Assembly: GCA_947306495.1 (NCBI GenBank)
Contig: CAMZGT010000001.1
Span: 62,001-126,000, forward strand
Source: an uncultured Acinetobacter sp.
Lineage (GTDB): Bacteria > Cyanobacteriota > Vampirovibrionia > Gastranaerophilales > Gastranaerophilaceae
Length of the DNA: 64,000 bases
Direction of reading: 5' to 3'
How positions within the stretch are numbered: position 1 is the first letter of the stretch; each line of letters begins with the position of its first letter. The notes under the pieces are model-generated. The model was not told where the DNA came from and did not search any database. It was given only the letters and a program-made list of their open reading frames with translations. The translations under genes and the position numbers were made by a program. This document shows positions 173-38,910 of the stretch, piece after piece.

Positions 173-1173
173 CCAATTTTAATATATGCTTTAAAAATTT
201 TATTGTTTACAGTATCTTCGAACGCTTGTTGAATTTTTTCAAGCGGGTAAGTTGTTGTGAGGTTTTTTACATTAACTTTTCCTGAGACCAAAAGATTAAA
301 AGAGTCATTTAAATCTTGCGGAGAAGGAGAATAGCTCCCCAGTATTGTTAACTCATTATAATATATTTCATTATTCGGATACCCGTTATTATTCGGAGTG
401 CTTGAAAATACAAGAATTTTTCCGCCTTTTCTTATTACTTTGAGTGCAACATCAATAGCTTTATCTGCGCCAGAAGTCATAAATACAGCATCAATACCGC
501 AGCTTTTTTTCTGTATTTTAGTATTGAATTCTTCAAGGTTTTTAGAATTATATGACTCTATTCCCATAGAATTTGCAAGCTCTATCCTGTCTTCTATAAG
601 GTCACATCCGTATACTTTATAGCCGCTGGCTTTTATACCCTCGCTCATAAGTAACCCTATGGAACCCAACCCGACAACAAGAACTTTATCACCTTCAATC
701 AGATTACATCTTTTAATAGCGCGTATGCAGCATCCAAGCGGTTCATAAAATGATATCTCTTCATCTGAAATTCTATCCGGGACTTTGTATGCAACATTTT
801 TCAAGTGTTCTTCCGAAAGATACACAAACTCGCTAAACCCTCCGGGAAAAATATTTGTTTTCTTAAAATGAGCACACATAGAAACATTACCATGTCTGCA
901 ATAAACACATTCTCCGCACGGAATATGATGTGAAGAAACAATTTTATCACCGGCAGAAAATTTTGTATCAGAGTTTATTTCAACAACTTCAGCAACAATT
1001 TCATGGCCTAATACAGTACCGTCTTTTGAAATTTTTTCGCGGAATTTAACTATATCAGAACCGCAAAGTCCGCAACCGAGAACTTTAACAATGGCTCCTT
1101 TTCTATTATCCAGAGTTACTTTTTCTATATCATTAATAACAATTTTGTTTTGTTGAATTTGCGCTGCTTTCAC
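169..1173 (-). CDS. zinc-dependent medium-chain alcohol/polyol dehydrogenase
   Basis: 334 aa MDR-superfamily oxidoreductase. The N-terminal GroES-like domain carries the catalytic zinc site (GLCGSD near residue 36 and GHE near 56) and a full structural-zinc lobe of four cysteines (CGECVYC...MC, about 86-100). A Rossmann NAD(P) domain follows with the VLVVGLGSIG fingerprint near residue 165. Overall it resembles threonine, sorbitol or galactitol-1-phosphate dehydrogenases; the substrate cannot be told from sequence. The start is GTG, preceded by GAGGA about 8 nt upstream. It follows the SpoIID-like gene on the same strand with a 15-bp gap and converges on the rubredoxin gene. Confidence 0.85.
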   Translation of the reverse strand: MKAAQIQQNKIVINDIEKVTLDNRKGAIVKVLGCGLCGSDIVKFREKISKDGTVLGHEIVAEVVEINSDTKFSAGDKIVSSHHIPCGECVYCRHGNVSMCAHFKKTNIFPGGFSEFVYLSEEHLKNVAYKVPDRISDEEISFYEPLGCCIRAIKRCNLIEGDKVLVVGLGSIGLLMSEGIKASGYKVYGCDLIEDRIELANSMGIESYNSKNLEEFNTKIQKKSCGIDAVFMTSGADKAIDVALKVIRKGGKILVFSSTPNNNGYPNNEIYYNELTILGSYSPSPQDLNDSFNLLVSGKVNVKNLTTTYPLEKIQQAFEDTVNNKIFKAYIKIG

Positions 1174-1188
1174 TTATTAATCCTCATA

Positions 1189-2049
1189 TTATTTTAATCT
1201 TGCAAATTTTGTATTAGCGTAAAAATATTTCAAAATTTGATATCCGTTGTAACCTCTTTTTGCGAGATTATTCGCCCCATATTGACTCATTCCGACTCCG
1301 TGACCATTCTTTTTTACTCCGTCATCATACGACGGAACTGATTTTAAAAACGGCAAATCTGTTGACCAAACTTGGCTTCCTGTATTTGTTTTACCTCCTG
1401 CAGAAGCTGAATAGTAGGCAGGGACTATTTTCCCCTGACAAACAAGCACAATTCCTTCAGTCTCAGATACCGCATCGTTAGTTTGCGAAGTTTCAGCACT
1501 TGCACCGCCATATGCCTGATCCTCAGGAGTATCTTTCAGATCATATCCGTATTTAGCACGTTTCCCCATATTTGCAACCGCATAACTTCTTGCGGCTATA
1601 GCTTGTGCCTTGTGTGCTTCATGTTCCCAGCCAGGAGGCATTTCAGAAGGAACGACTCCTCGAAGATACAGTTCAAGTTGAATATCGTTCATAACTGTGA
1701 GACCGGAACCATCATTGATAATTTTAAAATTCCCCCTGTACCATTTTCTTTTAACGCTGACAAAACCGTTTTCTTCAGGTTTGATTATTATTTTATCAGT
1801 TTTTATTTTTTTAAACTCGCCATCAACTTTTATTGCAATTAATCCTCTGTATGGTTTTAATTCATACCCTTTCATTTTTTCCATAACAAAGATTAATTTA
1901 TTGGTATTACAATCAATTATTTCGGCTTTGGTTGAAGCCCCTATAAAAGTTCTGTTTACATGTGTTTGCAACCCTATTTTTATTGCATGAACCGGCATAA
2001 CAAAAAACAACAATGCAAACAATATAAAAATAATTTTTCTCTTCCCCAT
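1189..2049 (-). CDS. SpoIID/LytB-domain protein
   Basis: 286 aa when started at the second ATG (MGKRK), which places a signal peptide directly at the N-terminus (IIFILFALLFFVMPVHA). The body is a SpoIID/LytB domain: ELYLRGVVPSEMP, the AIAARSYA segment, YYSASAGG and the C-terminal HGVGMSQYGA motif are all present. SpoIID enzymes are lytic transglycosylases acting on denuded glycan strands during sporulation; homologues in non-sporulating bacteria are envelope proteins with a presumed peptidoglycan role, which is the inference here. There is no Shine-Dalgarno; TATAAT on the minus strand (2056-2061) ends 6 nt before the ATG, so the mRNA is probably leaderless. Confidence 0.85.
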   Translation of the reverse strand: MGKRKIIFILFALLFFVMPVHAIKIGLQTHVNRTFIGASTKAEIIDCNTNKLIFVMEKMKGYELKPYRGLIAIKVDGEFKKIKTDKIIIKPEENGFVSVKRKWYRGNFKIINDGSGLTVMNDIQLELYLRGVVPSEMPPGWEHEAHKAQAIAARSYAVANMGKRAKYGYDLKDTPEDQAYGGASAETSQTNDAVSETEGIVLVCQGKIVPAYYSASAGGKTNTGSQVWSTDLPFLKSVPSYDDGVKKNGHGVGMSQYGANNLAKRGYNGYQILKYFYANTKFARLK

Positions 2050-2055
2050 ATGGTT

Positions 2056-2061
2056 ATTATA
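2056..2061 (-). promoter_or_regulatory. -10 element of a leaderless promoter for the SpoIID-like gene
   Basis: TATAAT on the minus strand, 6 nt upstream of the chosen ATG at 2049. Transcription would then begin at or next to the start codon. No ribosome binding site lies between. Confidence 0.5.
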
Positions 2062-2180
2062 CACTAAAATAACAGACCGTAAAATTAATAAAACCTTGAA
2101 TTATAAGTAATCGTGTTTTATACTGTAATATACGCACATTGAAAGGTCAAATTCACTTAATCACCTTTTTACATGTAATT

Positions 2181-2359
2181 CATGGGGATGTAATGGTTTT
2201 GACGCCGCGCGGCGAGCGTTATGGGCAAGCCAGAGGTGCGTTAGCACCGAAGGTGGAGCGTAATCAGCGGTGTCGTATTGCGAGAGCAATACGAGCAGGC
2301 TGATATAGCGGAGCCGTTTCCTCCAATCTGTTTTACATGGGGATGTAATGGTTTTGACG
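2181..2359 (+). repeat. 24-bp direct repeat of the tmRNA 5' end (2181-2204 and 2336-2359)
   Basis: CATGGGGATGTAATGGTTTT followed by GACG occurs twice, offset by exactly 155 bp. The right copy is the genuine 5' end of tmRNA (GGGGATG pairs with the 3' CATCTCC). The left copy is an orphan duplicate. The bases just before the repeat are also similar (TTTTACAT in both copies). The arrangement resembles attachment-site halves flanking an insertion, or a partial tandem duplication. Confidence 0.8.
2205..2335 (+). other. 131-bp GC-richer structured insert upstream of tmRNA
   Basis: This segment is clearly richer in GC than its surroundings and full of complementary blocks: the palindrome GCCGCGCGGC at its left edge, GGTGC/GCACC with a GTTA loop, CGTATTGC/GCAATACG closed by a GAGA tetraloop, and ATCAGC/GCTGAT enclosing that hairpin. 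It lies between the two copies of the tmRNA 5' end. No convincing protein is encoded; the ORFs reported across it run through the tmRNA. It could be a small mobile or satellite element or a processed 5' extension of pre-tmRNA. Confidence 0.55.
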
Positions 2360-2725
2360 TGGTGATTGATAGATTCTGGTTGCGAGTCCGAGAGCTGTTC
2401 TCGGTTATCAACGGGCAAACTAAATTAAATGCTAACGACAACGTTATCGCATTCCCTTCTAGAGCACAAGCTCTTGCTGCCTAATTGCAGTATGGGACCT
2501 CATAGTTGACCAGCTTGCCGTTTACTATGATGAAATTATGCAAGACGCAGTACGCAAATGATGGTATGCGTATCAAGATTACCATTGGAGGTTAGGTTTC
2601 CGTAAAAAATCTTTGGCTTAATAAAGGTTAGTAACTTTCCGTATCAAGCCGAGACAAAAGTTACTACACTCGTAGATATCAGCTTTTATCCGCTATGGAC
2701 AGGGGTTCGACTCCCCTCATCTCCA
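2339..2725 (+). ncRNA. ssrA: tmRNA (transfer-messenger RNA)
   Basis: One-piece tmRNA of about 387 nt. The 5' GGGGATG pairs with 3' CATCTCC to form the acceptor stem, followed by discriminator A; CCA is not encoded. The T arm is visible as ACAGGGGTTCGACTCCCCT. The tag reading frame is 2431-2484 and encodes ANDNVIAFPSRAQALAA followed by TAA, with the usual Ala start and a hydrophobic -ALAA degron recognised by ClpXP-type proteases. tmRNA with SmpB rescues ribosomes stalled on broken mRNAs. A hairpin terminator follows directly. The 5' end is duplicated 155 bp upstream. ORF-track entries across this region are artefacts. Confidence 0.95.
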
Positions 2726-2731
2726 GATTTT

Positions 2732-2758
2732 AAAAGGACTTTTCAAGAGAGTCCTTTT
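2732..2758 (+). terminator. intrinsic terminator of ssrA
   Basis: AAAAGGACT and AGTCCTTTT form a 9-bp stem around a 9-nt loop immediately after the tmRNA 3' end, followed by a T-rich stretch. Confidence 0.75.
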
Positions 2759-2762
2759 CTTG

Positions 2763-2887
2763 TTTGTCGGCATTAAACGTGCCTTCGTATTATGCTGACG
2801 CAAAACTTACCTCTCACAAAACTGTCCACAGGACACTTTTGTTCGGCAGAGTGCACTCTGCCGACAAGCCGCTTTTTAATGCCAAAA
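2763..2887. repeat. nested inverted-repeat region
   Basis: Three complementary pairs are nested here: TTGTCGGC (from 2764) with GCCGACAA (about 2860-2867), GGCATTAA (2769-2776) with TTAATGCC (2876-2883), and a perfect 22-bp palindrome TCGGCAGAGTG/CACTCTGCCGA at 2843-2864. A small GTCC-ACA-GGAC hairpin lies just upstream. No ORF is present. It could be a folded RNA or a remnant of a miniature transposable element. Confidence 0.5.
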
Positions 2888-2978
2888 TATTCCGACAGTA
2901 GCGGGGTTTCAGGAAAAGAGAGAATCAAAAATTTCTTAACAATCCATAGGTGATTTTTGAAAATAGATATAAAAAAGT

Positions 2979-3230
2979 ATGAAAAGACTTACTCTTTATA
3001 TCTTAATAGTTATATTATTTACTTGTGGCTGTACTAAATCAAATTTAAACAGTGACGAGACATTTTCTCAATCAAAAAATCAAGAAATCACAAATCATGA
3101 AATAAGTTTAAATAAAGAAGAACCCCAACCCCAAGAAAAAGAACAAAAAGAATATGGATTTGATATGACCCAAAAAAAGGTGCCTATAGTAATACACATA
3201 ATAATGAAGCAGATACTTTTTTGTTTATGA
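2979..3230 (+). pseudogene. small putative lipoprotein, probably frameshifted
   Basis: 83-codon ORF starting with a lipoprotein-type signal (MKRLTLYILIVILFTCGC) whose cysteine could be lipidated. A low-complexity polar stretch rich in Glu, Gln, Lys and Asn follows. After residue 67 the frame crosses a run of seven A and the composition changes from polar to hydrophobic. Adding one A would continue the polar style (GAYSNTHNNEADTF). The gene may therefore be broken, have a sequencing error, or use slippage. No recognisable family and no clear ribosome binding site. Confidence 0.35.
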
Positions 3231-3273
3231 GGAGTCAAGCCCGACATAACTTTCGTGACGTTGGGGTTCTTCT

Positions 3274-3711
3274 TTATTTTACAACCTTCTGAACATCAGC
3301 AGTTATATCATCACCGCCAAATACAACAACTCCTTTTGATATAACCATATCATATCCTTTTGATTTTGCTGTAGCAGAAATCGTATCTGTTATACTCTTA
3401 TCAACAGCTTGTAATCTTGTTTGATAATCTTTTGCTATTGCTTCTTTTTTCTTTGCAAAATCAGCATTATATTTTTTTAATAACTTTTCTTTTCCCTCTT
3501 GCGTATTTTGTTTTTCAACATCAGCTTTCGCTGTTTTTAACCATTTTTCCAAATCTTGAATTTTTGCTTGCTGCTCCTTTTTTAAAACCTTAACTTGCTC
3601 AGATTTTGCAACAACAGCACCGACATCGATTACTGCAATTTTTTGTTCCGCCATACTAACACCTGTACCTAATATTAATGCAGTTAAAACTAATGATAAT
3701 ATCTTTTTCAT
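3274..3711 (-). CDS. OmpH/Skp-like periplasmic chaperone
   Basis: 145 aa starting at the internal Met (MKKILS), preceded by AGGAG. The signal peptide MKKILSLVLTALILGTGVSMA is followed by the Skp-type opening KIAVIDVGAVVAKSEQVK and a long charged helical region (about residues 40-105) matching the coiled-coil tentacles of Skp. The C-terminal strand region DMVISKGVVVFGGDDIT matches the family's closing beta segment. Skp chaperones unfolded outer-membrane proteins in the periplasm, so its presence argues for a two-membrane envelope. It follows the hydrogenase gene on the same strand with a 43-bp gap. Confidence 0.8.
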   Translation of the reverse strand: MKKILSLVLTALILGTGVSMAEQKIAVIDVGAVVAKSEQVKVLKKEQQAKIQDLEKWLKTAKADVEKQNTQEGKEKLLKKYNADFAKKKEAIAKDYQTRLQAVDKSITDTISATAKSKGYDMVISKGVVVFGGDDITADVQKVVK

Positions 3712-3754
3712 TCCTATTCTCCTATTTCGATAGCAAACCAAAACTCTATCTTAA

Positions 3755-5299
3755 TTAATTTATTTTTTTAATATTCTCACTTGTTTCCGACAAATTCTGA
3801 ATTTGCTTTTTCGCTATCCTTTGATTATTTATTGTAGCATTGCCTCCGATACATCCGCCTTCACAGCACATGACTTCTACCAGATTGCAACCGTTTTCAC
3901 ACTCACCGGTTTTTGCATAATTTCTTAATTTTTTAATACTGTCTTTGTCAAGACCATTTATAATACATGGTTTAACAATATTATCTTCTTTTAATGAAGC
4001 TTTTACGGACTCTGTAACACCCCCTGAAAAACCGAAATTACGAGCCTGCTTGGATGATTCTACAACATATTTTCCTTCCGGCATATTTAAAATTTGAATT
4101 TTTTGAGCGACGAATAATGAGCCAAGCTCTTCGTAGTTCATAACATAGTTAACATTTGGATTTTCAAAACTCTCAGCACGTTTTGCAACACAAGGGCTTA
4201 TAAATACAGTTACAGCATCAGGGAAATCTTTTTTTACAATTTCAGCTGTGTAATATAAAGGAGTTTTTGTATCCGATACATAAGGCTTTATTTCCGGCAT
4301 ATGTTTTTTTATTAATTGATTATACCCTGCACAACAAGATGTTGTCATAAAATTATGCACTTTTTCATCTTCAACGGTTTCGTCATATTCACCATATCCG
4401 CCTGCATTTGCCCATTCTGTAACCCACTCTGAATTCTTTTCATTTACGGCTTCCATTCTTTCAAGAAACTCTTGCGCTTCATTATTTGCCGTAATATCAG
4501 CGCCCTGTGCAACTTCATAAACATCATCAAAACCTGATTTTATTATCGCATTTTTCAATTGATATATATTTCCGGGAAATTGTCCCGCAATTGACGGAGC
4601 TATCATTGCAATAACTTTCTTATTTGATTTTATTGCCTTAAGAATATCAACTATTTGACTTCTTTCATGAACTGCACCAAACGGGCAAGCTGCAATACAT
4701 CTTCCGCAATTTATGCATTTATCATAATCTATACTTGCAAATCTTGTTTCATCTTTCTTAATTGCTCCTACAGGGCATGCATCTTCACATGGTACGGTAA
4801 TTTTTACAATAGCATTATAAGGACATGCTTTTACGCACATTTGACATTTTTTACATTTTGAATCATTAATAATTGATCTTCCGTCAACAATAGATATTGC
4901 CCCAAATTTGCAAGCTGACTGACAAGGACGCGCAACACATCCTTGACATAAATCCGTAACATAAATTCTATTGGTAGCACAACCTTTACAGGCCGTTTGT
5001 AATACGGTTAAGTTTTTATCGCTTATTTCTTTTCTTTCAAGAGCTTTCTGTGCATATGTTTTCAGAGAAACTGTTTCATCATCTTCTTCGATAGGGAATC
5101 CCAAACCTGCAATTGTTCTGTCTTTTATAATTGCACGTTCCTTGTATACGCAGCATCTGAACGGAACTTCCATACCCTTAGGCCTCATTGAATATGGAAT
5201 AAGCCTTGCCTGCTCCTCGAAATTATCCGAAAGAAATGCTTTTATTATTCTTACTAATATTTCTTTTTTTATGTGTATTGCTTGTCCCGCATTATTCAT
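3755..5299 (-). CDS. [FeFe] hydrogenase, ferredoxin-rich monomeric type
   Basis: 514 aa. The N-terminal half carries several [4Fe-4S] cysteine groups: CKGC and CQGC (about 104-120), CKKCQMCVKACP (about 149-160), CEDACP (about 171) and CINCGRCIAACP (about 195-206). The C-terminal half has the three H-cluster signatures: TTSCCAGYN (about 319), ISPCVAKRAE (about 367) and EVMCCEGGCIGG (about 475). These place it among [FeFe] hydrogenases, with signatures diverging from canonical TSCCPAW and ending GGN rather than GGG, more like group B than group A. Expected role: proton reduction or H2 oxidation coupled to ferredoxin. Maturases HydEFG are not in the window. It is paired with the [2Fe-2S] gene 2 bp upstream. 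Confidence 0.8.
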   Translation of the reverse strand: MNNAGQAIHIKKEILVRIIKAFLSDNFEEQARLIPYSMRPKGMEVPFRCCVYKERAIIKDRTIAGLGFPIEEDDETVSLKTYAQKALERKEISDKNLTVLQTACKGCATNRIYVTDLCQGCVARPCQSACKFGAISIVDGRSIINDSKCKKCQMCVKACPYNAIVKITVPCEDACPVGAIKKDETRFASIDYDKCINCGRCIAACPFGAVHERSQIVDILKAIKSNKKVIAMIAPSIAGQFPGNIYQLKNAIIKSGFDDVYEVAQGADITANNEAQEFLERMEAVNEKNSEWVTEWANAGGYGEYDETVEDEKVHNFMTTSCCAGYNQLIKKHMPEIKPYVSDTKTPLYYTAEIVKKDFPDAVTVFISPCVAKRAESFENPNVNYVMNYEELGSLFVAQKIQILNMPEGKYVVESSKQARNFGFSGGVTESVKASLKEDNIVKPCIINGLDKDSIKKLRNYAKTGECENGCNLVEVMCCEGGCIGGNATINNQRIAKKQIQNLSETSENIKKIN

Positions 5300-5301
5300 T
5301 A

Positions 5302-5559
5302 TTAATGTCCCAGTTTTTTGTCTATAGCTTCTAATACCTTTTCTACCGTTGCTTCGTTAACAACTTCATCATCAACTTTAACATAAGGTGCTTTTGAGTA
5401 TTCCCAATTTATGGAACAAAGTCCCAAACAATTATTTGATGTTACTTCAACCTTATCACCATATTTTTTAGGAATGATATCATTTAATTCTTGCAGATTA
5501 TTTCCACCCATAACAAAGCAGGTTGTACCCAAGCATACTTTTACTTCAATCTTTGTCAT
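5302..5559 (-). CDS. thioredoxin-like [2Fe-2S] ferredoxin (NuoE-type)
   Basis: 85 aa. The four ligand cysteines are spaced CLGTTC (C-x4-C) and CLGLC (C-x3-C), the pattern of the [2Fe-2S] thioredoxin-like fold found in NuoE, HydC-type subunits and small ferredoxins. It precedes the hydrogenase in the same transcript, separated by 2 bp, so it is probably its redox partner or an electron-transfer subunit. AAGGAGT lies upstream of the ATG. No flavin-binding diaphorase subunit is nearby, so an electron-bifurcating multimer cannot be concluded. Confidence 0.8.
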   Translation of the reverse strand: MTKIEVKVCLGTTCFVMGGNNLQELNDIIPKKYGDKVEVTSNNCLGLCSINWEYSKAPYVKVDDEVVNEATVEKVLEAIDKKLGH

Positions 5560-5600
5560 ACCAGACTCCTTGTTTTTGTATTTATAAAATATGTATAAAG

Positions 5601-8228
5601 TTAAACAATACCTTCATAAGCGTCAAGGAATAACTGTTTTATTTCACTCATAAGCGGATATCTTGGGTTAGCGCCTGTACACTGGTCATCAAATGCTCTT
5701 TCTACAAGCATGTCCAAATTTGCTTTAAAATCTTTTTCCTTAACCCCGAATTCTTTTATTGACTTCGGTAAATTAATTTCTGTCATAAGCTTATCAACTG
5801 CCTCAATCAGCAATTTAACTTTTTCATCATCATTTTTACCGCCTAAACCGAGTTCGTCAGCAACTTGACCATATTTAGTCTTAGCATTCGGATATTTATA
5901 TTGAGGGAAAATTGCTTGTTTAGTAGGTTTATCTGTTGAATTGTACTTGATAACTTGACGAATTAACAGAGCATTTGCAACACCATGTGGAATATTATAC
6001 ATGGCCCCAAGCTTGTGAGCCATTGAGTGGCATAATCCTAAGAATGAATTTGCAAATGACATCCCCGCAATTGTTGCCGCATAGTGCATTTTCTCTCTTG
6101 CTAAAGGATCGTTAGCTCCCTCCTTATATGAACGTGCAAGATATTTGAATACTAATTTTGTTGCTTCCAAAGCATTTGAATTAGTAAAGTTCGTTGCCAT
6201 ACAAGATACATACGCTTCTAAAGAGTGAACCAACGCGTCAATACCTGATGCTGCAGTCAATCCTTTCGGCATGCTGTCAACAAAGTTAGGATCTACAATT
6301 GCCATATTAGGAGTTAAAGCGTAATCAGCTATAGCGTATTTATAATGCGTTTTTTCATCCGTAATAATTGAGAAAGGTGTAACTTCAGAACCTGTTCCTG
6401 ATGTAGTCGGAATACAAACCATTTCAGCCTTTTTGCCCAAATCAGGAATTTGACAAATTCTCTTTCTGATATCCATAAATCTCATTGAAATGTCTTCAAA
6501 ATTTGTATTCGGCTGCTCATATAATAACCAGATAATTTTAGCCGCATCCATAGGAGAACCTCCGCCAAGTGCAATAATTACATCCGGTTCATAAGGTCTT
6601 ACTATTTCCATTGCCTGTTTAATTGTTGCAATTGTTGGGTCAGGTTTTACATCAAAGAATACCTGATGGTCAATATCAATTTCATCTAAAACTTTAGTTA
6701 TATTCTCTACTGCGCCTGAATTAAATAAGTAACGGTCAGTAACAATAAACGCTCTCTTTTTACCTTTTAATTCTCTAAGAGCTAAATCCAAACAACCTCT
6801 TTTGAAGTAAACTTTTGGAGGAACCTTGAACCATAACATATTTTCTCTCCTTTCAGCTACAGTTTTATAATTTAATAAATGTTCTACACCTATGTTACCT
6901 GATACGGAATTTCCGCCCCAAGAACCACAACCCAGCGAAAGTGACGGTTCAAGTTTGAAGTTGAATAAATCACCAATACCCCCTTGAGATGATGGCGAAT
7001 TGACGAGAATTCTGCAGGACGGCATTTTTTCAGCATAAGCATTAATTCTTTCAGATTTTCTTTCATCAGTATAAAGCGATGACGAATGCCCCGCTCCGCC
7101 TTTTATAACCAATTCATAAGCCATATCGGCAGCTTCCTCAAATGATTTTGCCTTGTACATAGTTAAAATCGGCGACAATTTTTCACGGCTGAATGGGTCA
7201 TTCCAATCCATTTTTGCTCTTTCACACAATAATATTTTTGAATCTTCCGGAATTGAGAACCCTGCCAGCTCTGCAATTTTATGCGCAGGTTGACCAACTA
7301 TAGACGGATGGGCAGTTCCCCTTTGATGGTCAATAAACGGAAGCTCCAACAATTTCTTTTCGTCGGATTTTTTTACAAGATATGCTCCGCGATATATAAA
7401 TTCTTTTTTCACTTCTTCATAAATATCATCAACAACAATAACCGATTGTTCTGAAGCACAAATCATACCGTTATCAAAAGTTTTTGACATAAGGATTGAT
7501 GATACAGCCATCTTGATATCCGCAGTTTCGTCAATAACTGCTGCAACATTACCGGGACCGACACCTAATGCAGGTTTACCTGAAGAATAAGATGCTTTCA
7601 CCATCCCAGGACCGCCTGTTGCAAGAATACAAGCTATATCAGGATGATGCAGCAAAGCTGCGGATAAATCCATAGAAGGTACATCTATCCAACCTATAAT
7701 GTCCTTTGGTGCGCCTGCTTTTACAGCAGCTTCCAATACAACTTTTGCGGCTTCAATAGTTGATTTTGTTGCACGGGGATGTGGTGAAAATATTATAGCA
7801 TTTCTGGTCTTTAATGAGATTAAAGACTTAAATATTGCTGTTGATGTCGGGTTGGTCGTAGGAATAATTCCGGCCAATATGCCAAGAGGTTCGGCAACTA
7901 TTTTTATGCCGTTTTCTTTATCTACGCTAATAATTCCGCATGTTTTTGCATTCTTATGTTTATTATAAATATATTCTGAAGCATAATGGTTTTTAATAAT
8001 TTTATCTTCTAAAACACCCATGCCTGTATCTTCAACTGCCATTCTTGCAAGAGGAATTCTCATCTTGTCGGCAGCTGTTGCTGCGGCTTTAAAAATTTTG
8101 TCTACATCTTCTTGAGAGAATTTTGAATATTCTTCTTGTGCTTTTTTTACTCTGCAGATTAAATCGTTCAAAGCATCAACATTATCAACAAGCCCTGATG
8201 ACTTTCGAATATTTTTTTTCTCTGGCAT
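5601..8228 (-). CDS. adhE: bifunctional acetaldehyde-CoA/alcohol dehydrogenase AdhE
   Basis: 875 aa, the usual AdhE length. The N-terminal aldehyde dehydrogenase domain (about 1-430) contains the catalytic Cys in GMICASEQS near residue 256. The C-terminal iron-dependent alcohol dehydrogenase domain (about 455-875) shows [10 protein letters not shown] and the metal-binding histidines in HSMAHKLG and PHGVANALL. Together they reduce acetyl-CoA to ethanol with two NADH, regenerating NAD+ during fermentation. AdhE normally assembles into filaments (spirosomes). The start has a clear AGGAGAG site. It is the first of a same-strand run with the hydrogenase pair, which links ethanol and possibly H2 production. 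No Rex operator was recognised upstream. Confidence 0.96.
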
Positions 8229-8301
8229 TATATCTCTCCTTTTGCTAAATAATCGCTAAAACCCTATATTCAATATTATTACTTACGCCGAACGGTGTCA
8301 A

Positions 8302-9534
8302 CTATTTCATAATTTCGGCACCTTTGGGAATAGTAAGCCAACCTTGCTTTTCAGGTATATTTTTATTGACAAAACCAGTACGTACAATATTTCGTCCGAA
8401 TTTTTGCTCTAATTTATCAAGGCTTTTTCCCAAATTTTCATTCTGAATCCTCTTAGGATTATCATCAAAAATAGTAAGCTGCTCTTCACCGTTCAAAGAA
8501 AAATCTTCCAATACTACACCAATACTTCTGTATAACGTTGTTTTAGAATACATTCCATCCAGAATCTTAAAAGCGATTTTAGATATATCAAACTCAAAAT
8601 CCAAAGGTGTTTTCAAATTTTCTTTCTCATAAAACGTTTTAAAATCTTTTGTTCTTACTATTACTCCTATTGTTGAACATCTACAGCCTATTTTACGTAA
8701 TTTTGTACAAGTGCTGTGTATATGAATTGATAATTCGTTTCTCAAAAAATTTAAATCAGAAGTAAATTCTAAAAACGACTTGGTATCACTGATTGATTTT
8801 GGGAGTTCAATTTCATTGGATATCGGAGATATCATAATTCCTAAAAGCTCAGATTTAATCTCAAGTCCGTTTTTACCAAGATGTTTTTTTATCCATCCAT
8901 TGTCACGTTCAACAAAGTCTATAGCAGTCTTTATACCGTATCCGCGAAGCTTTACACCTAATCTTCGACCAATTCCCCAAACTTCTTGTATATCAGTTTT
9001 TGCTAAAAGGTTTTGACGTGTTTGTTTTCCTGCCAGAGCAATTCTGTCTTTCGAGTTCTTAGCTTTATCGGAAGCAAGTTTTGCAAGAGTTTTCGTTCTG
9101 CTTACTCCTATTGTCACAGGCATTTGAGTTTCGTTCCAAATTTTTTGCTGAAGCATAAGCGCCAAGTTATAATAATTTTTCCCATAAAGTTTTGTAAGTC
9201 CGGTAAAATCTACAAATGCTTCATCTATAGAATATACCTGAACATTAGGACTAAAATCTTTTAAAATAGCCATAACCATCTTAGAAATTTTTCCGTACGC
9301 ATGGTGATTTGCACTAATATAGATACATTCCGGATACTTTTCAACAGCCTGAAAAAGCGGAATTCCCATAGGAACACCAAGTTCTTTAGCTTCGCGAGAG
9401 CGTGCGATTACGCACCCCCTTTCTCCGGATACAACACTTACAGGCAATCCGTTCAGTTCGAGATTAAGCTTGCGTTCACAGGAAACAAAAAAGCTGTCAC
9501 AATCTACTAAAGCTATGTATTTTTGATTTGTCAT
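8302..9534 (-). CDS. umuC: Y-family DNA polymerase, UmuC-type
   Basis: 410 aa. The Y-family catalytic motifs are intact: DCDSFFVSCE at the N-terminus and YSIDEAFVD near residue 103, followed by the finger and little-finger regions. The C-terminal tail (KQGWLTIPKGAEIMK) has the style of UmuC rather than DinB. Such enzymes carry out translesion synthesis after DNA damage. The gene lies 3 bp after a small ORF on the same strand with no obvious Shine-Dalgarno, so translation is probably coupled. No umuD homologue is visible in the window; the small upstream protein does not resemble LexA/UmuD. No SOS box was recognised with confidence. Confidence 0.88.
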   Translation of the reverse strand: MTNQKYIALVDCDSFFVSCERKLNLELNGLPVSVVSGERGCVIARSREAKELGVPMGIPLFQAVEKYPECIYISANHHAYGKISKMVMAILKDFSPNVQVYSIDEAFVDFTGLTKLYGKNYYNLALMLQQKIWNETQMPVTIGVSRTKTLAKLASDKAKNSKDRIALAGKQTRQNLLAKTDIQEVWGIGRRLGVKLRGYGIKTAIDFVERDNGWIKKHLGKNGLEIKSELLGIMISPISNEIELPKSISDTKSFLEFTSDLNFLRNELSIHIHSTCTKLRKIGCRCSTIGVIVRTKDFKTFYEKENLKTPLDFEFDISKIAFKILDGMYSKTTLYRSIGVVLEDFSLNGEEQLTIFDDNPKRIQNENLGKSLDKLEQKFGRNIVRTGFVNKNIPEKQGWLTIPKGAEIMK

Positions 9535-9537
9535 AAA

Positions 9538-9762
9538 TTATTCGAAAGTATAATCTACCTTCTTTTCCTTCCAGTCATAAACTTTTTTCTTCGGCAAAAT
9601 CTCAGTTAAAAGACCTTCCTTGTAACGCTTCACATACCATCTGTGAAATCTTAATGCACGATTAATGTCCGTAGTTTGGAATTTTTCAATTCGCTTACCA
9701 CCCTTAATTTGAACCATTTTATATAAGGCTTCTATCTGTTCGCCAGTATCAATATCTAACAT
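9538..9762 (-). CDS. small protein of unknown function co-transcribed with umuC
   Basis: 74 aa, basic and rich in Lys, Arg, Tyr and Trp (RALRFHRWYVKRYKEGLL). Family not recognised. It precedes umuC with a 3-bp gap, so it is probably in the same transcript. The promoter is unusually clean: TTGTTT, 17-bp spacer, TGC-TAAAAT on the minus strand, then 6 nt to the ATG, implying a leaderless mRNA. A role in translesion synthesis or its control is only a positional guess. Confidence 0.6.
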   Translation of the reverse strand: MLDIDTGEQIEALYKMVQIKGGKRIEKFQTTDINRALRFHRWYVKRYKEGLLTEILPKKKVYDWKEKKVDYTFE

Positions 9763-9768
9763 AATAAT

Positions 9769-9797
9769 ATTTTAGCATGGGACAAATTAGTAAACAA
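9769..9797 (-). promoter_or_regulatory. leaderless promoter of the small gene-umuC operon
   Basis: On the minus strand: -35 TTGTTT (9792-9797), 17-bp spacer, extended -10 TGCTAAAAT (hexamer 9769-9774), then AATAAT complement and the ATG at 9762. The 6-nt gap leaves no room for a 5' UTR. Confidence 0.6.
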
Positions 9798-9814
9798 AAT
9801 GGCTAATAAATATT

Positions 9815-9844
9815 AAAAAGCTGCTTCATAAGAAACAGCTTTTT
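9815..9844 (-). terminator. intrinsic terminator of nrdD
   Basis: AAAAAGCTG/CAGCTTTTT, a 9-bp stem with a 12-nt loop, 33 bp downstream of the nrdD stop. It separates nrdD from the umuC operon promoter. Confidence 0.7.
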
Positions 9845-9877
9845 AGTATTTTATCTTTTATTTGTCTATATTTATCA

Positions 9878-12160
9878 CTACATAGATTTTCTGTCTGCAA
9901 TTTCTTCCATCTTGTGGTCTGCTAGACGAGAATCACCTTTTACACGTGAATATGAAAGGTATCCGTTCATACGGTCAATCTTTGTAAGGTTTCTGCTTCC
10001 GCATTTCGGACATACATCCATATTCAATTCTTCGTGACCGCAGTCATCACAGTATGAAAGTGACAAGTTAACCCCTTCATAGAAACCCATATCCATTGCT
10101 CTCAAAACAAGAGTTTTAACAGCGTCTGTATTATAATCAAGCGGGTATTTTACATATTGAATTTTTCCGCCGTTCATCAAATCCCAGAAACGTTTTTCTA
10201 AATCTTGTTTTTGGATAGGTGTAATATTTTCACTTACGTGGCAGTGGAAGCTGTTTGAAACGTACGGTTTATCAGATACGTGAGAAACAACACCATATTT
10301 TTTACGGAATTGTTGAACTTGAAGTCCGCAAAGGTTTTCAGCCGGAGTTCCGTATAATGCATAGAGATTTCCATCTTCTTTCTTGAACTCAGCAACTTTC
10401 TTGTTTATGTATTCCATAACTTCGATTGCAAATTGACCGTCTTCTACCAAAGATTTTCCGTTATATAATTCTTGCAATTCATTTAATGCTGTAATACCAA
10501 ATGATGCTGTAGCTGCTTTCAATAAAGGTTTAATCTTATCATGAATACCTAAATGACCGCCTAAGAAACCGCCTTCGCAGTATGCAAGAGGGTTAACTGA
10601 TGCTTTCATTTCTCCCAAGTATTCATAAGTTCTTATGTGAAGTTGTCTGATTAATTCCAAATAGTAATCAAGAACTTCATAAAAATCTTTACTTTCCTTT
10701 TTAGCTTTAGCATAAATCATAGGTAAGTGTAAGCTGATTGCACCTATGTTGAAACGACCTACGAAAATTGGTTTGTCATTTTCATCAGCCGGTTCCATAC
10801 CGCCTCTTTCGAACCAAGGAGAAAGGAATGCTCTGCAGCCCATCGGAGAAACAACTCTGCCGTATTTTTTGTACATACTTGCAACATATCCTTCACCTGA
10901 TAATGACAACCAGTCAGGATACATAGCTTTCTTGGAGCATTCAACACCTGCTTCGAACAAGTCATAATTAACCTTGCCTTCACCGTGGATGTTTTCATCA
11001 TATAAGAAAACTATCTTAGGGAATAATACAGGTTTTTTGTTACCTTTCTTACCTTGACCGTTCATACGAATTTTTAACATAGCTTTTGTAGCCATTTTTT
11101 CGTATAATTCAGTTCCAAGACCGGCTGTAACTGTGATGAACGGATAGTCCCCACGAGAAGATGCTACTGTATTAAATTTATATTCCCAACCTTGGAAACC
11201 TTGTTCAAAATCTTTTTCTACATCTTTTAAAGCTTCTTCTCTTGCCTTTTCAAAGTCCAGACCCATGCAAAGGTATTTTTCGTTTTGTCTTGAGAATGTT
11301 TTTTCTGCGTATGGTGCCAAAATTTTATCAACTTCCGGAACAGTAAAACCGCCGTATTGTTGACTTGCAGCAGCCATAACGATATCACCGATTACATCAA
11401 AGGCAACATCAAGTGATTTTGGTTCGTTGTACCATAGGTTACCCATTTCAAAACCACCCTTAAGAACTGTTGCCACATCAAATAAACAGCAGTTCATAGT
11501 ATCACGTCTTGCTGACATATCGTGAATATAAATATAACCATCTCTTATTGCTTGAAGTTCATCTACTGTTAAGAAGAACTTTTTGTATAATTCCTTGTTG
11601 AGTTCGTTGAATATTAAAGAACGTTTTGTTGAAACAAGAGTGGAATCAGCGTTTGAGTTTTCTTTATCACCTATGTACATAATTCTTTGAGATTCCTGAT
11701 AAACTTTATCAAGCATGTGTACAAAATCTTGTTTATAGTTTCTGTAATTTCTGTAACTCTGCGCTACGCTAGGATTAAGAGCTTCTAATGCTCCTTCAAC
11801 AAGATTATGCATTTCTGCAATAGGAATTTCGGTTTTACCGATTCTTGCAATATTTGCTTCCACAAAGTCACATATGTCTTTAAGTTCTGTATCTGTGAGC
11901 TCAACCAACATTCTTGTTGCAGATTTTTTAACGGCATTAACAATTTTAGAAGCATCGAATTCTTCTTTTGTACCGTCTTTTTTAATTACATAAACATGTT
12001 CTAATTTCGCAGGTTTGATTTGCGCTGCTTTTAGCTGTGCAACCTGAGATATGAATTCCTTGTTTGGATTTGCTGAACCACGCATCATATCTGTAGCAAC
12101 ACCTGATTTAGTTGATGAGAATTCTACTACATTTCCTTCCTTATTCAAACTGTTTTGCAT
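9878..12160 (-). CDS. nrdD: anaerobic ribonucleoside-triphosphate reductase, class III
   Basis: 760 aa. An N-terminal ATP-cone (KDGTKEEFDASKIVNAVKKS, about 60-80) provides allosteric control. The body matches NrdD with MNCCLFD and a large glycyl-radical barrel. Near the C-terminus a four-cysteine zinc site (CDDCGHEE...CPKCGS) precedes the radical-glycine region MNGYLSYSRVKGD. NrdD makes deoxyribonucleotides without oxygen and needs the radical-SAM activase NrdG, which is not next to it here. A strong TAGGAGG lies upstream of the ATG. It is a hallmark of strict or facultative anaerobic growth. Confidence 0.93.
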   Translation of the reverse strand: MQNSLNKEGNVVEFSSTKSGVATDMMRGSANPNKEFISQVAQLKAAQIKPAKLEHVYVIKKDGTKEEFDASKIVNAVKKSATRMLVELTDTELKDICDFVEANIARIGKTEIPIAEMHNLVEGALEALNPSVAQSYRNYRNYKQDFVHMLDKVYQESQRIMYIGDKENSNADSTLVSTKRSLIFNELNKELYKKFFLTVDELQAIRDGYIYIHDMSARRDTMNCCLFDVATVLKGGFEMGNLWYNEPKSLDVAFDVIGDIVMAAASQQYGGFTVPEVDKILAPYAEKTFSRQNEKYLCMGLDFEKAREEALKDVEKDFEQGFQGWEYKFNTVASSRGDYPFITVTAGLGTELYEKMATKAMLKIRMNGQGKKGNKKPVLFPKIVFLYDENIHGEGKVNYDLFEAGVECSKKAMYPDWLSLSGEGYVASMYKKYGRVVSPMGCRAFLSPWFERGGMEPADENDKPIFVGRFNIGAISLHLPMIYAKAKKESKDFYEVLDYYLELIRQLHIRTYEYLGEMKASVNPLAYCEGGFLGGHLGIHDKIKPLLKAATASFGITALNELQELYNGKSLVEDGQFAIEVMEYINKKVAEFKKEDGNLYALYGTPAENLCGLQVQQFRKKYGVVSHVSDKPYVSNSFHCHVSENITPIQKQDLEKRFWDLMNGGKIQYVKYPLDYNTDAVKTLVLRAMDMGFYEGVNLSLSYCDDCGHEELNMDVCPKCGSRNLTKIDRMNGYLSYSRVKGDSRLADHKMEEIADRKSM

Positions 12161-35066: not shown

Positions 35067-36419
35067 ATGTTTAAACGAGTATTAATAGCAAATCGAGGGG
35101 AGATTGCGGTAAGGGTCATTAGAGCCTGCCGTGAACTTGGAATTCCGACGGTAGCAGTATATTCACAAGCAGATGCTGAATCTTTACACGTAAGATTAGC
35201 AACAGATGCTTTTTGTATAGGACCTGCGCCAAGTATAGACAGTTATTTAAATATTCCTGCAATAGTTTCAACAGCTTTAACTACAGGTTGTGATGCAATT
35301 CATCCCGGATACGGTTTTTTGTCTGAAAGAGCCGAATTTGCAGAGATTTGCGATATGCATGGCATAAAATTTATAGGACCTACCGCTGCATCTATGCGCA
35401 AAATGGGCGATAAAGCTACCGCGCGCAGAACAATGATTGAAAATAACGTTCCTGTTACCCCCGGCACAGGGATTCTAAAATCTGTAGAAGAAGCAAAAGA
35501 ATTTGCGCACAAAGTCGGATACCCTATAATCCTTAAAGCTACTGCAGGTGGCGGCGGAAAGGGAATGAGAATCGTTAGAACTAATGATGAATTAGAAACT
35601 AATTTGAATTTGTGTCGTCAGGAAGCTCAAAGCTTCTTCGGAAATGCGGGAGTTTACGCAGAAAAATTTCTGGAAAACCCTCGACATATTGAAGTACAAA
35701 TTTTAGGTGATTCTTTTGGAAATGTTATTCATCTTGGTGAACGCGACTGCTCAATTCAAAGGCGTCACCAAAAACTTCTGGAAGAAGCCCCTTCTCCGGC
35801 AATTGACGAAGAAACGCGTAAAGAAATGGGTGCTGCTGCCGTAAGAGCTGCAAATGCCGTGAAATACGAAGGAGCAGGCACTTGCGAATTTCTGCTTGAC
35901 CACGACGGCAAATGGTATTTTATGGAGATGAATACTCGTATTCAGGTTGAGCATTGCGTTACGGAAATGATTTCTCAAATTGATATAGTTCGTGAACAAA
36001 TTTTGATAGCATCAGGAGAAAAACTCAGTTACACACAAGATGACGTAAAGCTTAGAGGACATGCTATAGAATGTCGAATTAATGCGGAAGATCCTGAAAA
36101 CGACTTCATGCCTTGTCCAGGAAAAATAGATGGTTATTTCACTCCCGGTGGTTTTGGTATTAGAGTTGATTCACATGTATACCCCGGATACTCTATTCCG
36201 CCATATTACGATTCTATGATAGGAAAACTTATTTGTTGGGGCGAAAATCGTAAACAAGCAAGACGCCGAATGTATCAGGCTTTAAAAGAATACGTTGTAA
36301 CCGGAGTTAAGACAACTATTCCTTTCCATCAGGAAATCATAGAAGATGAAGTATTCAAAACAGGCAAGTTTAATACCGGTTTTATTGAAGATTTTTATAA
36401 AAGAAAAGAAGAAAAATAG
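35067..36419 (+). CDS. accC: acetyl-CoA carboxylase biotin carboxylase subunit
   Basis: 450 aa ATP-grasp enzyme of normal length. KRVLIANRGEIAVRVIRAC opens the pre-ATP-grasp domain; the ATP loop is ATAGGGGKGMRIV (about 160-172) and the active-site segment MEMNTRIQVEHCVTEM is near residue 288. It carboxylates the biotin on AccB using bicarbonate and ATP. AAGGA before the ATG. Its stop codon is immediately followed by a tRNA-Gly 5' fragment, indicating that the tRNA gene once abutted the operon. Confidence 0.97.
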   Translation: MFKRVLIANRGEIAVRVIRACRELGIPTVAVYSQADAESLHVRLATDAFCIGPAPSIDSYLNIPAIVSTALTTGCDAIHPGYGFLSERAEFAEICDMHGIKFIGPTAASMRKMGDKATARRTMIENNVPVTPGTGILKSVEEAKEFAHKVGYPIILKATAGGGGKGMRIVRTNDELETNLNLCRQEAQSFFGNAGVYAEKFLENPRHIEVQILGDSFGNVIHLGERDCSIQRRHQKLLEEAPSPAIDEETRKEMGAAAVRAANAVKYEGAGTCEFLLDHDGKWYFMEMNTRIQVEHCVTEMISQIDIVREQILIASGEKLSYTQDDVKLRGHAIECRINAEDPENDFMPCPGKIDGYFTPGGFGIRVDSHVYPGYSIPPYYDSMIGKLICWGENRKQARRRMYQALKEYVVTGVKTTIPFHQEIIEDEVFKTGKFNTGFIEDFYKRKEEK

Positions 36420-36460
36420 GCGGACGTAATTCAGTGGTAAAATGCAACCTTCCCAAGGTT
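36420..36460 (+). pseudogene. tRNA-Gly 5' fragment (left boundary of inserted element)
   Basis: These 41 nt equal the first 41 nt of the intact tRNA-Gly at 38839, with one mismatch in the D loop (GGTAA versus GGTAG). The match covers the acceptor 5' strand, D arm and most of the anticodon arm through the CCC anticodon, then stops abruptly. The orientation and distance make this fragment and the intact gene the two boundaries of a 2.4-kb insertion. Confidence 0.85.
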
Positions 36461-36622
36461 TTAAGGGGTTCTCTTCATATTTTTCACATTCTTCATAGAC
36501 TTTACAAATCAAGCATTTTGCCTATTTTATATTTTTCACAAATCTCACATTTTTCACTTGTTTTACGAAAAAATGTTATAAAAATGTTATAAAAAGTCTA
36601 ACCAAATTAAAGTCCTAAAAAG

Positions 36623-36650
36623 TTGCAAAAAGAACAAAATATTGTATAAT
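36623..36650 (+). promoter_or_regulatory. promoter of the DUF3800 transcript
   Basis: TTGCAA (36623-36628), 16-bp spacer, TATAAT (36645-36650). The predicted start, near 36657, is just before the structured leader. Confidence 0.65.
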
Positions 36651-36658
36651 ATAAATAT

Positions 36659-36708
36659 GGGCTGAGCGTATGCTCTGGGTCCACCGTAGGCGAGGGATGA
36701 CCCTCGCC
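36659..36708 (+). ncRNA. structured leader RNA upstream of the DUF3800 gene
   Basis: Two hairpins are visible: GAGC-GTAT-GCTC (36664-36675) and a perfect 8-bp stem GGCGAGGG/CCCTCGCC with an ATGA loop (36689-36708). The block is far more GC-rich than its surroundings and sits between a good promoter and the start codon. Conserved RNA motifs associated with DUF3800 genes have been described as several DUF3800 motif classes; whether this belongs to one of them needs a covariance-model search. The second hairpin is not followed by a T run, so it is not a simple terminator. Confidence 0.6.
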
Positions 36709-36741
36709 ATTTTAATATTGAGATTTAGAATAGAGAAAATA

Positions 36742-37425
36742 ATGAAAGATTTAAGTATATTTGTAGATGAGTCAGGTGATTTTGGTGAATATAACTACAA
36801 TTGTCCATATTATATTGTTACATTTGTCATTCATGAACAAGACAATTCTATAGAAGAACAAATAAATAAGCTCAATCTCCGTTTTAATATTTCTAATTCA
36901 AATATCCCCGCAATGCATACTGCACCATTAATAAGAAGAGAGGAAATGTATAGGCATTATGATATAAAAGAACGTAAAGCATTGTTTAGTACATTTTTTC
37001 ATTTTACAAGAAAAGTTGGCATAAAATACAAAAATATAGTTGTCGATAAAAAGCATAAAACAGCAATTGATATGAATATGGATATATCAAAACAGTTATC
37101 TAATTTTGTAAAAGAGAATCTTTCATATTTTCAAAATTTTGATAAAATAATCACTTATTATGATAATGGGCAGAACCAACTTGCCAATATCCTTGTATCG
37201 GTATTCAGTTCTTGGTTTCATGAAAAATTTGAATATCGTGTAGTTTCTCCTTATGATTATAAATTATTTCAAGCGGCAGACTTTATTTGCACATTATCAT
37301 TAATTGAACATAAAAAACTATGTGGACAAACATTTACTAAATCAGAGCAATTCTTTTTCGGTTCTTACCGAAATCTAAAAATAAACTACTTAAAGCATCT
37401 TAAAAAGTTGGAGTTTCAGGGGTAA
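36742..37425 (+). CDS. DUF3800-domain protein
   Basis: 227 aa from the internal ATG (MKDLSIFVDESGDFG); the upstream part of the track ORF is leader RNA. The N-terminal FVDESGDFG and the C-terminal KLFQAADFICTLS are the two acidic signatures of DUF3800, a family with an RNase H-like appearance, common on mobile elements and defence islands, whose biochemical role is unsettled. The ribosome site is weak (AGAGAA). It lies just inside the left boundary of the tRNA-Gly element, so it is probable cargo. Composition is more AT-rich than its neighbours. Confidence 0.8.
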   Translation: MKDLSIFVDESGDFGEYNYNCPYYIVTFVIHEQDNSIEEQINKLNLRFNISNSNIPAMHTAPLIRREEMYRHYDIKERKALFSTFFHFTRKVGIKYKNIVVDKKHKTAIDMNMDISKQLSNFVKENLSYFQNFDKIITYYDNGQNQLANILVSVFSSWFHEKFEYRVVSPYDYKLFQAADFICTLSLIEHKKLCGQTFTKSEQFFFGSYRNLKINYLKHLKKLEFQG

Positions 37426-37565
37426 AAGGTAAAAAAATAAATAAATTTCCTAATAGTTTTACGGAAAAATGTTGGAAAATGTTGGAAAAAGAAATGTATT
37501 CTATTTTTACTATAAAAAACTCAACATTATAATAAATTTATCAATTTAAACAATTTTATAAAAAA

Positions 37566-38642
37566 TTAAATTCCAAAACCACCTGCTACTCCTTGACAAG
37601 TTATTTTTATACCTTTATTTCTTTTTATATATTTTTCCACTTCATTATAATTTACTTCATTACCACTTGCATCATAAAATTTATTATTCTTTTTTGTATA
37701 TACAATATTATTTGAGGAATCCTTTATTTCTGCATCACCCAATCTATTATCATCCCAAGGAAAATCATGTTCTTTATCAAAGAATAATTCACCTAATCTG
37801 TCATTTTCTGATAATTTGTCACCATCGATTTCGGTGGTTTTATTTTGCATATCCCATTTTCGGGTTCCATCAGATTTAATTGCTTCTTTAGTTCTACCAT
37901 CATAGTAAAACACATCTTTATATCCATATACACCATAATCAACTGTAAAGGTTCCATCATGATTATCCTTTACGCTATGTTCATCAAATTGTTCCCAATA
38001 TGGTTTTTCAAATTTACCATTTTTATTCGCTGTAATTGCTTGTTCATATTTTTCTAAAAATGTTTTTTCATCTACTTCTTGACCATCAGCAATATATTTG
38101 CCATTCAGTGAGATAAAACTTATTTCTTTGTCATCACTAATTTGTATATGCTTTAATGCATATTTTGAAAACCCTTTAGATTGTATTTCATCTCTTAAAG
38201 TTTGTACTTCTTCTGATGATGGTGCATTAGCTTCTTCATCTTTAGCTTTTTCTTTAGCAATTTGAATTTCATTATTGATCTCATCTTGAGCTTTTGTCTT
38301 ATATTCTGTTGCTAATTTTTCAAATTCTGCATCTGCATTATCTGCACTTTGTTGAGTTGATATATCATATTTTATCCCAGCAAATTTCATTGCATATTTA
38401 TTATAAGTACATTTAATAAATCTTGTGAAATCCCTAAATTGTGATACCCAATTGGAGTTATTGCTTATATTTGTGTTTGTTGAGACTAATTCATTTTTAG
38501 CAGTATCAAAAATACTAATAACAGCTTCGTCTTGTAAATTAATTAAGCCAATAGGATCACTGTCTGATATACCTTGACGGCTATAATCACGGTTACTATC
38601 GTATTTTGCATAGTAGAATTGTTGTTGAATTTCGTTTGCCAT
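37566..38642 (-). CDS. protein of unknown function carried by the tRNA-Gly element
   Basis: 358 aa from MANEIQ, chosen because GAGAGAG lies just upstream. No family recognised. The middle (about 100-145) is a charged, Ala/Glu/Lys-rich predicted coiled coil (KTKAQDEINNEIQIAKEKAKDEE). The C-terminal half is polar with repeated D/N-G turns (NGKYIADGQEV, YYDGRTKEAIKSDGT), suggesting strand-turn-strand units, and ends GVAGGFGI. No signal peptide or membrane helix. It lies at the right end of the element, opposite in strand to DUF3800. Confidence 0.6.
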   Translation of the reverse strand: MANEIQQQFYYAKYDSNRDYSRQGISDSDPIGLINLQDEAVISIFDTAKNELVSTNTNISNNSNWVSQFRDFTRFIKCTYNKYAMKFAGIKYDISTQQSADNADAEFEKLATEYKTKAQDEINNEIQIAKEKAKDEEANAPSSEEVQTLRDEIQSKGFSKYALKHIQISDDKEISFISLNGKYIADGQEVDEKTFLEKYEQAITANKNGKFEKPYWEQFDEHSVKDNHDGTFTVDYGVYGYKDVFYYDGRTKEAIKSDGTRKWDMQNKTTEIDGDKLSENDRLGELFFDKEHDFPWDDNRLGDAEIKDSSNNIVYTKKNNKFYDASGNEVNYNEVEKYIKRNKGIKITCQGVAGGFGI

Positions 38643-38838
38643 AATAACTCTCTCATTATTAAAAAGTATATTTTTTTTTAATAATTTCATAAAAAATGCT
38701 TTTTGTAACATAAATTAATAATTAAAGTAATTATAACTAACGCAATCACAAATACGATTTGTTATAAAAATGTTATAAAAATTCAAAAAAATAGAAACAT
38801 GTTAACAGCCTGAAATGTTTGTTATAAAATAATCATAT

Positions 38839-38910
38839 GCGGACGTAATTCAGTGGTAGAATGCAACCTTCCCAAGGTTGACGTCGCGAGTTCGAGTCTC
38901 GTCGTCCGCT
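38839..38910 (+). tRNA. tRNA-Gly(CCC)
   Basis: Full cloverleaf of 72 nt: acceptor GCGGACG/CGTCCGC, D arm with AGTGGTA, anticodon stem CAACC/GGTTG with loop TTCCCAA (anticodon CCC) and T arm GCGAG-TTCGAGT-CTCGT. Discriminator T; CCA not encoded. Reads GGG codons. Its first 41 nt are duplicated at 36420. A TATAAA about 11 nt upstream, inside the element, may now serve as promoter. Confidence 0.97.

Follow-up and report, generated by a model that had tools for sequence, protein, structure and literature searches.

The tRNA islands collected by Islander are bracketed by an intact tRNA gene and a displaced end fragment, with a crossover in the anticodon region and an attP of about 250 bp; the program requires an internal integrase gene and a length of at least 2 kb (PMC4383910). 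Integrase-less islands that retain attL and attR fall under the definition of CIMEs (PMC5704250, which cites Pavlovic 2004 and Bellanger 2011 for the concept). In tRNA-dependent lysogeny the mobile element provides what the host tRNA loses, promoter included (PMC10865867), and DUF3800 proteins, which have an RNase H-like fold and are found in rare CRISPR loci, form modules with a structured RNA (RF02975; PMC10910872).

Here we describe an insert at the 5′ half of a tRNA-Gly(CCC) gene, within a window (the whole stretch of DNA that was analysed) of 64 kb, which resembles each of these systems in part. Its borders, its probable crossover region and its predicted attP are those of an Islander island. 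It shares with CIMEs the attL and attR flanks, the absence of integrase and transfer genes and traces of possible accretion, but it belongs to a whole integrase-less family within one genus with members of only 1.0–2.4 kb, it sits at a tRNA 5′ half, where CIMEs occupy the 3′ end of their target gene, and it has no known parental ICE. As in tRNA-dependent lysogeny the element appears to replace what the host tRNA loses, although here the junction would rebuild the tRNA from an element 5′ half and a host 3′ half and no separate tRNA gene is carried. The RNA and protein families and the RNase H-like fold of the DUF3800 modules recur here, in this case as cargo of a minimal tRNA element. A first-pass annotation of the sequence had stressed that the 5′ and not the 3′ half of the tRNA is duplicated; such insertions are indeed a minority, but they are precedented, since 5′ fragments account for 159 of the 3919 islands in Islander (PMC4383910). 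An integrase-less family aimed at the tRNA 5′ half is nevertheless unusual. We favour, with a probability of about 0.68, the view that the insert is a non-autonomous integrative cassette with an attP of about 255 bp, mobilized in trans by the integrase of another element.

Organization of the insert

ARAGORN and Rfam identify a single intact tRNA-Gly(CCC) gene in the window (Table 1). A second copy of its nt 1–41, differing only at nt 21 (G to A), starts 2419 bp away from it and abuts accC, the stop codon of which ends at 36419. The first-pass annotation had noted this 41-nt copy with its one mismatch directly after accC. The best ungapped alignment scores 40/41, whereas 60 shuffled versions of the region gave no more than 23/41. 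The tRNA and the end fragment have the same orientation, and the fragment lies on the correct side for a site-specific tRNA genomic island. The 2.4 kb of DNA between them is AT-rich, as had also been recognized, with 26.9 % G+C, the window as a whole having 33.7 % and accC 40.1 %. To these features we add a DUF3800-XI RNA and arm-like tandem repeats, one close to each end and a third, of variant sequence, lying between the genes. An Rfam match to cow-rumen-3 at 36553–36685 is far under its gathering score and was discarded.

Table 1. Features of the insert and its borders, in positions of the 64-kb window
Feature	Position	Strand	Remarks
Displaced tRNA-Gly(CCC) 5′ half, nt 1–41 (attL core)	36420..36460	+	Original chromosomal half left beside accC; in the G018/G005 pair, its left flank equals that of the empty site
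Conserved non-coding left arm (P′ arm)	36461..36594	+	Ends in TGTTATAAAAATGTTATAAAA at 36574–36594; first unit 114 nt past tRNA nt 41
DUF3800-XI structured RNA (RF02975)	36658..36704	+	Rfam match of 40.2 bits, above the gathering score of 37.8
Cargo gene, DUF3800 protein, 227 aa, RNase H-like fold	36742..37425	+	PF12686, E=7e-12
Internal relic resembling the G062 right end, after the DUF3800 gene	37448..37489	+	TTCCTAATAG...; TGTTGGAAAATGTTGGAAAA at 37470–37489
Cargo gene, orphan 358-aa protein	37566..38642	-	One homologue (45 %) among 97 relatives
Right-arm tandem motif TGTTATAAAAATGTTATAAAA	38760..38780	+	Spacing of -79 relative to the tRNA, as in G013 and G100
Conserved right end CTGAAATGTTTGTTATAAAATAATCATAT; -10-like box immediately 5′ of the tRNA	38810..38838	+	Predicted replacement promoter from the element
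Intact tRNA-Gly(CCC) (attR)	38839..38910	+	Element 5′ half and chromosomal 3′ half; 3′ halves host-specific

We also considered the possibility that the element is larger and that the native tRNA 3′ half is to be found beyond it on the downstream side, and rejected it since no such half is present elsewhere in the window. That arrangement is seen in a second tRNA element of the same genome (G000:C17, about 364–10730; L268, L227), in which a native tRNA-Met 5′ half is followed 45 nt on by a complete tRNA-Met and a gene for a 357-aa tyrosine integrase, with a tRNA-Met 3′ half (nt 31–68, 87 %) approximately 10 kb away. It looks like a case of tRNA-dependent lysogeny in which the element brings its own whole tRNA.

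Shared ends define a family

The left end, composed of tRNA nt 1–41 and an ungapped non-coding arm, is present in eight of 65 same-genus genomes: G000 (which contains the window), G018, G029, G059, G062, G063, G098 and G100. The G098 copy runs off its contig, leaving seven fully assembled members with fragment-to-tRNA lengths of 2419 bp (G000), 1261 bp (G018), 1613 bp (G029), 1689 bp (G059), 1325 bp (G062), 1032 bp (G063) and 1323 bp (G100), and the integrase and length requirements of Islander would thus filter out most of the family. From the core to the motif the left arms span 126 nt without a gap in seven members, with 64–93 % identity, and the changes are spread 20/21/20 over the three codon positions with no bias; the arm is therefore non-coding and constrained in length. 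The possibility that it is an eroded coding sequence was dismissed on the same even distribution and on the presence of stops in all frames in several copies. In a sample of 383 genomes of the family, searched at low sensitivity with two candidates scored per genome, the weak left-end matches in other genera are AT-rich chance matches, so that the left end is only provisionally absent from those genera.

A tandem TGTTATAAAA/TGTTGGAAAA motif starts 114 nt past tRNA nt 41 in G000, G018, G029, G059, G062, G063 and G100. The right-end motif is 79 nt before the tRNA in G000, in G100 and in G013, a genome in which right ends were found; G062 has a GG variant of the motif 77 nt before its tRNA, and G029 has one unit. 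The right end is shared by five genomes, and the conserved right arm is missing from G018, G059 and G063, whose right ends have thus diverged or differ. In 97 relatives, every occurrence of the exact 21-nt tandem motif is at one of these elements, which retain both attL and attR.

Several other configurations were seen around tRNA-Gly genes. Four displaced fragments (L111:12955–13011, L118, L125 and L152) contain different inserts of about 50–60 bp that start with GGGGTAAA and sit between the D-loop and anticodon regions, and these copies may therefore be old and immobile. Two G013 contigs (L109:5131–5272 and L110:1–141) have an exact 141-nt overlap across the right end and tRNA nt 1–41, which resembles an assembly-graph branch and could correspond to a tandem or excised form. 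In many relatives (L027:2925–3170 and similar loci) about 55 bp spanning the tRNA-Gly 3′ end is repeated about 180 bp downstream.

Empty sites, crossover and probable movement between species

Thirteen same-genus genomes have the tRNA-Gly directly after accC with neither fragment nor insert. The downstream flanks vary between species, so that the window can be matched to these empty sites on the accC side only. In another pair of species, G018 and G005, a filled and an empty site can be compared on both sides: the end of a MarR-like gene lies 2 bp ahead of the tRNA fragment that opens the 1261-bp insert in G018, and 2 bp ahead of the intact tRNA in G005. Identity between the two over 100 bp is 88 % in the left flank and 90 % in the right, as against 54 % for the control, the sequence that precedes the intact tRNA of the filled site; it is thus the displaced fragment that has the native left flank. 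The first-pass annotation had proposed that an element lacking its own integrase had integrated site-specifically at the 5′ half of the tRNA, and the empty sites and the lack of an integrase in the insert agree with this; the contrary case that it raised, in which all relatives share the filled arrangement and an empty site is found nowhere, is contradicted by the 13 genomes and by the G018/G005 pair.

In G063 and G100 the identity between fragment and tRNA ends at nt 38, which places the crossover inside nt 1–38. In the anticodon arm, CAACC-TTCCCAA-GGTTG, inverted repeats flank a 7-nt loop; by analogy with the Islander class (PMC4383910) this is the type of sequence that integrases would use there, and the anticodon stem-loop is the most likely position of the exchange. 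The tRNA 3′ halves are host-specific down to the two strands of the T stem, consistent with a 3′ half supplied by the host. In the common right end a -10-like box precedes the tRNA, and the sequence is similar to native tRNA promoters, for example the one in G017, suggesting that it may be a replacement promoter; one is expected to be carried, since the insertion removes the native promoter or upstream operon.

The left end of G000 is 93 % identical to those of both G018 and G029, whereas accC is 79 % identical between these genomes, and about 50 % at third positions. Together with the different genes found upstream of the tRNA among the carriers, these sequence comparisons favour transfer between species, although constraint on the non-coding ends could in part account for their high identity.

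Cargo

In the window, the RF02975 match lies just upstream of the DUF3800 gene, and the same RNA precedes DUF3800 homologues in three relatives; homologues with the RNA are also found outside these elements. The structural model of the DUF3800 protein (pLDDT 87.9) has RNase HII and RNase H3 as its best PDB matches, and RNA and protein probably constitute an RNA–nuclease module maintained as cargo. The 358-aa protein yields a model (pLDDT 56) too poor to interpret. Relatives of the two proteins are absent from viral contigs, and the phage and plasmid records contain one partial phage match and one plasmid match to DUF3800.

The other members carry different genes, namely an HI1420-type antitoxin with a weak Gp49/ParE-like toxin match (G059), a CheR-like methyltransferase (G100), two small proteins with apparent signal peptides (G018), orphans (G029 and G063) and a broken DUF3800 gene with a diverged RNA copy (G062). 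The resemblance of the sequence following the DUF3800 gene to the right end of G062 suggests that the window insert is composed of two fused cassettes from which the internal tRNA fragment has been lost.

We note three further settings of these cargo families. In L127 (G073:C11), tRNA-Met and a perfect copy of its nt 29–72 enclose 7.9 kb that include a DUF3800 homologue, and another DUF3800 gene is near Rfam abiF and RT-18 RNAs, suggestive of a defence region (L144:1723–11000, G011:C2). The sole homologue of the 358-aa protein (L145:7536–9095, G064:C43) adjoins, at a contig end, a fragment similar to the zinc-ribbon end of serine recombinases.

Source of the recombinase and alternative explanations

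No integrase was found inside the elements or at any tRNA-Gly(CCC) locus examined, and the possibility of one hidden in the cargo was rejected following Pfam, PHROGs and PADLOC scans and tblastn searches with the integrases of the genus. The elements contain no transfer genes, and their cargo includes none of the capsid-remodelling, packaging or replication families that mark phage satellites. Element ends and arms are absent from phage collections, viral contigs and IMG/VR, and our searches found no helper integrase, circular junction or larger version. Elsewhere in the window genome (L226:5251–5423, G000:C2), a near copy of the promoter and of tRNA nt 1–18 lies upstream of tRNA-Gly(TCC), together with an inverted D-arm copy, and adjoins a prophage integrase.

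Each copy could instead be a decayed CIME, the fossil of a larger integrase-carrying element that has kept its att sites and lost its integrase and transfer genes, much as the first-pass annotation had suggested in speaking of a remnant. The retained attL and attR conform to the CIME definition (PMC5704250), and the internal end relic in the window, the broken DUF3800 gene of G062 and the inserts in some displaced fragments would fit such decay. However, none of the seven fully assembled members, which have conserved ends and differ in cargo, contains an integrase, and seven independent decays to 1.0–2.4 kb would be needed, each keeping an ungapped left arm and a distinct, intact cargo. The larger, integrase-carrying versions that the first-pass annotation proposed to look for were not found in the 65 same-genus genomes or in the 383-genome family sample, the latter searched at low sensitivity, and we regard general decay as unlikely.

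It is much less probable again that the recombinase is host XerC/XerD, as for elements that exploit dif. Tyrosine recombinases are found elsewhere in most carriers, and G100, with a full element, has only two, both Xer-like; but its genome is about 96 % complete, so that an integrase could be missing from the assembly, the target is a tRNA anticodon arm and not dif, and an att region with long, repeat-bearing arms is in the style of an integrase. Exchange of cassettes by homologous recombination between conserved ends, after rare ancestral integrations, would explain the common ends, the differing cargo and the way in which the two arm variants, TGTTATAAAA and TGTTGGAAAA, are mixed among left and right ends, but is similarly improbable, since the different upstream genes and the clean filled/empty pair indicate that new insertions did occur.

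A model for trans-mobilization

The family is characterized by conserved ends, fixed spacing, empty sites, several cargoes and no integrase, and on the preferred reading, mobilization in trans, these are properties of a cassette whose circular form would contain an attP of about 255 bp made up of the right arm with the tRNA promoter, tRNA-Gly nt 1–41 and the left arm. The predicted junction reads from the right end (...ATCATAT) through tRNA nt 1–41 into TTAAGGGGTTCT. Recombination with the host tRNA within nt 1–38, most likely in the anticodon stem-loop, would insert the cassette upstream and push the native promoter or upstream gene leftward along with the native 5′ half, and the tRNA would be restored from the cassette promoter, the cassette 5′ half and the host 3′ half. 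The enzyme is presumed to be a tyrosine integrase that binds the tandem arm sites and that another element provides in trans; some vehicle would carry the cassettes from species to species.

More tentatively, and with somewhat less than an even chance, the members may together form a trans-mobilized cassette system, comparable to integron cassettes without a resident integrase. Minimal elements of 1–2.4 kb, equipped only with a complete attP that includes the tRNA promoter and 5′ half, would use one shared integrase from other elements, and toxin–antitoxin, RNA–nuclease and other cargo would be shuttled between species at a single tRNA-Gly gene.

Families of this kind are invisible to island finders such as Islander that require an integrase and at least 2 kb. 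If the cassettes are mobile, an integrative element needs as little as one attP of about 255 bp, and the family makes clear why an element that inserts at a tRNA 5′ half has to bring a promoter with it. The common arms offer a concrete handle toward identifying the helper integrase.
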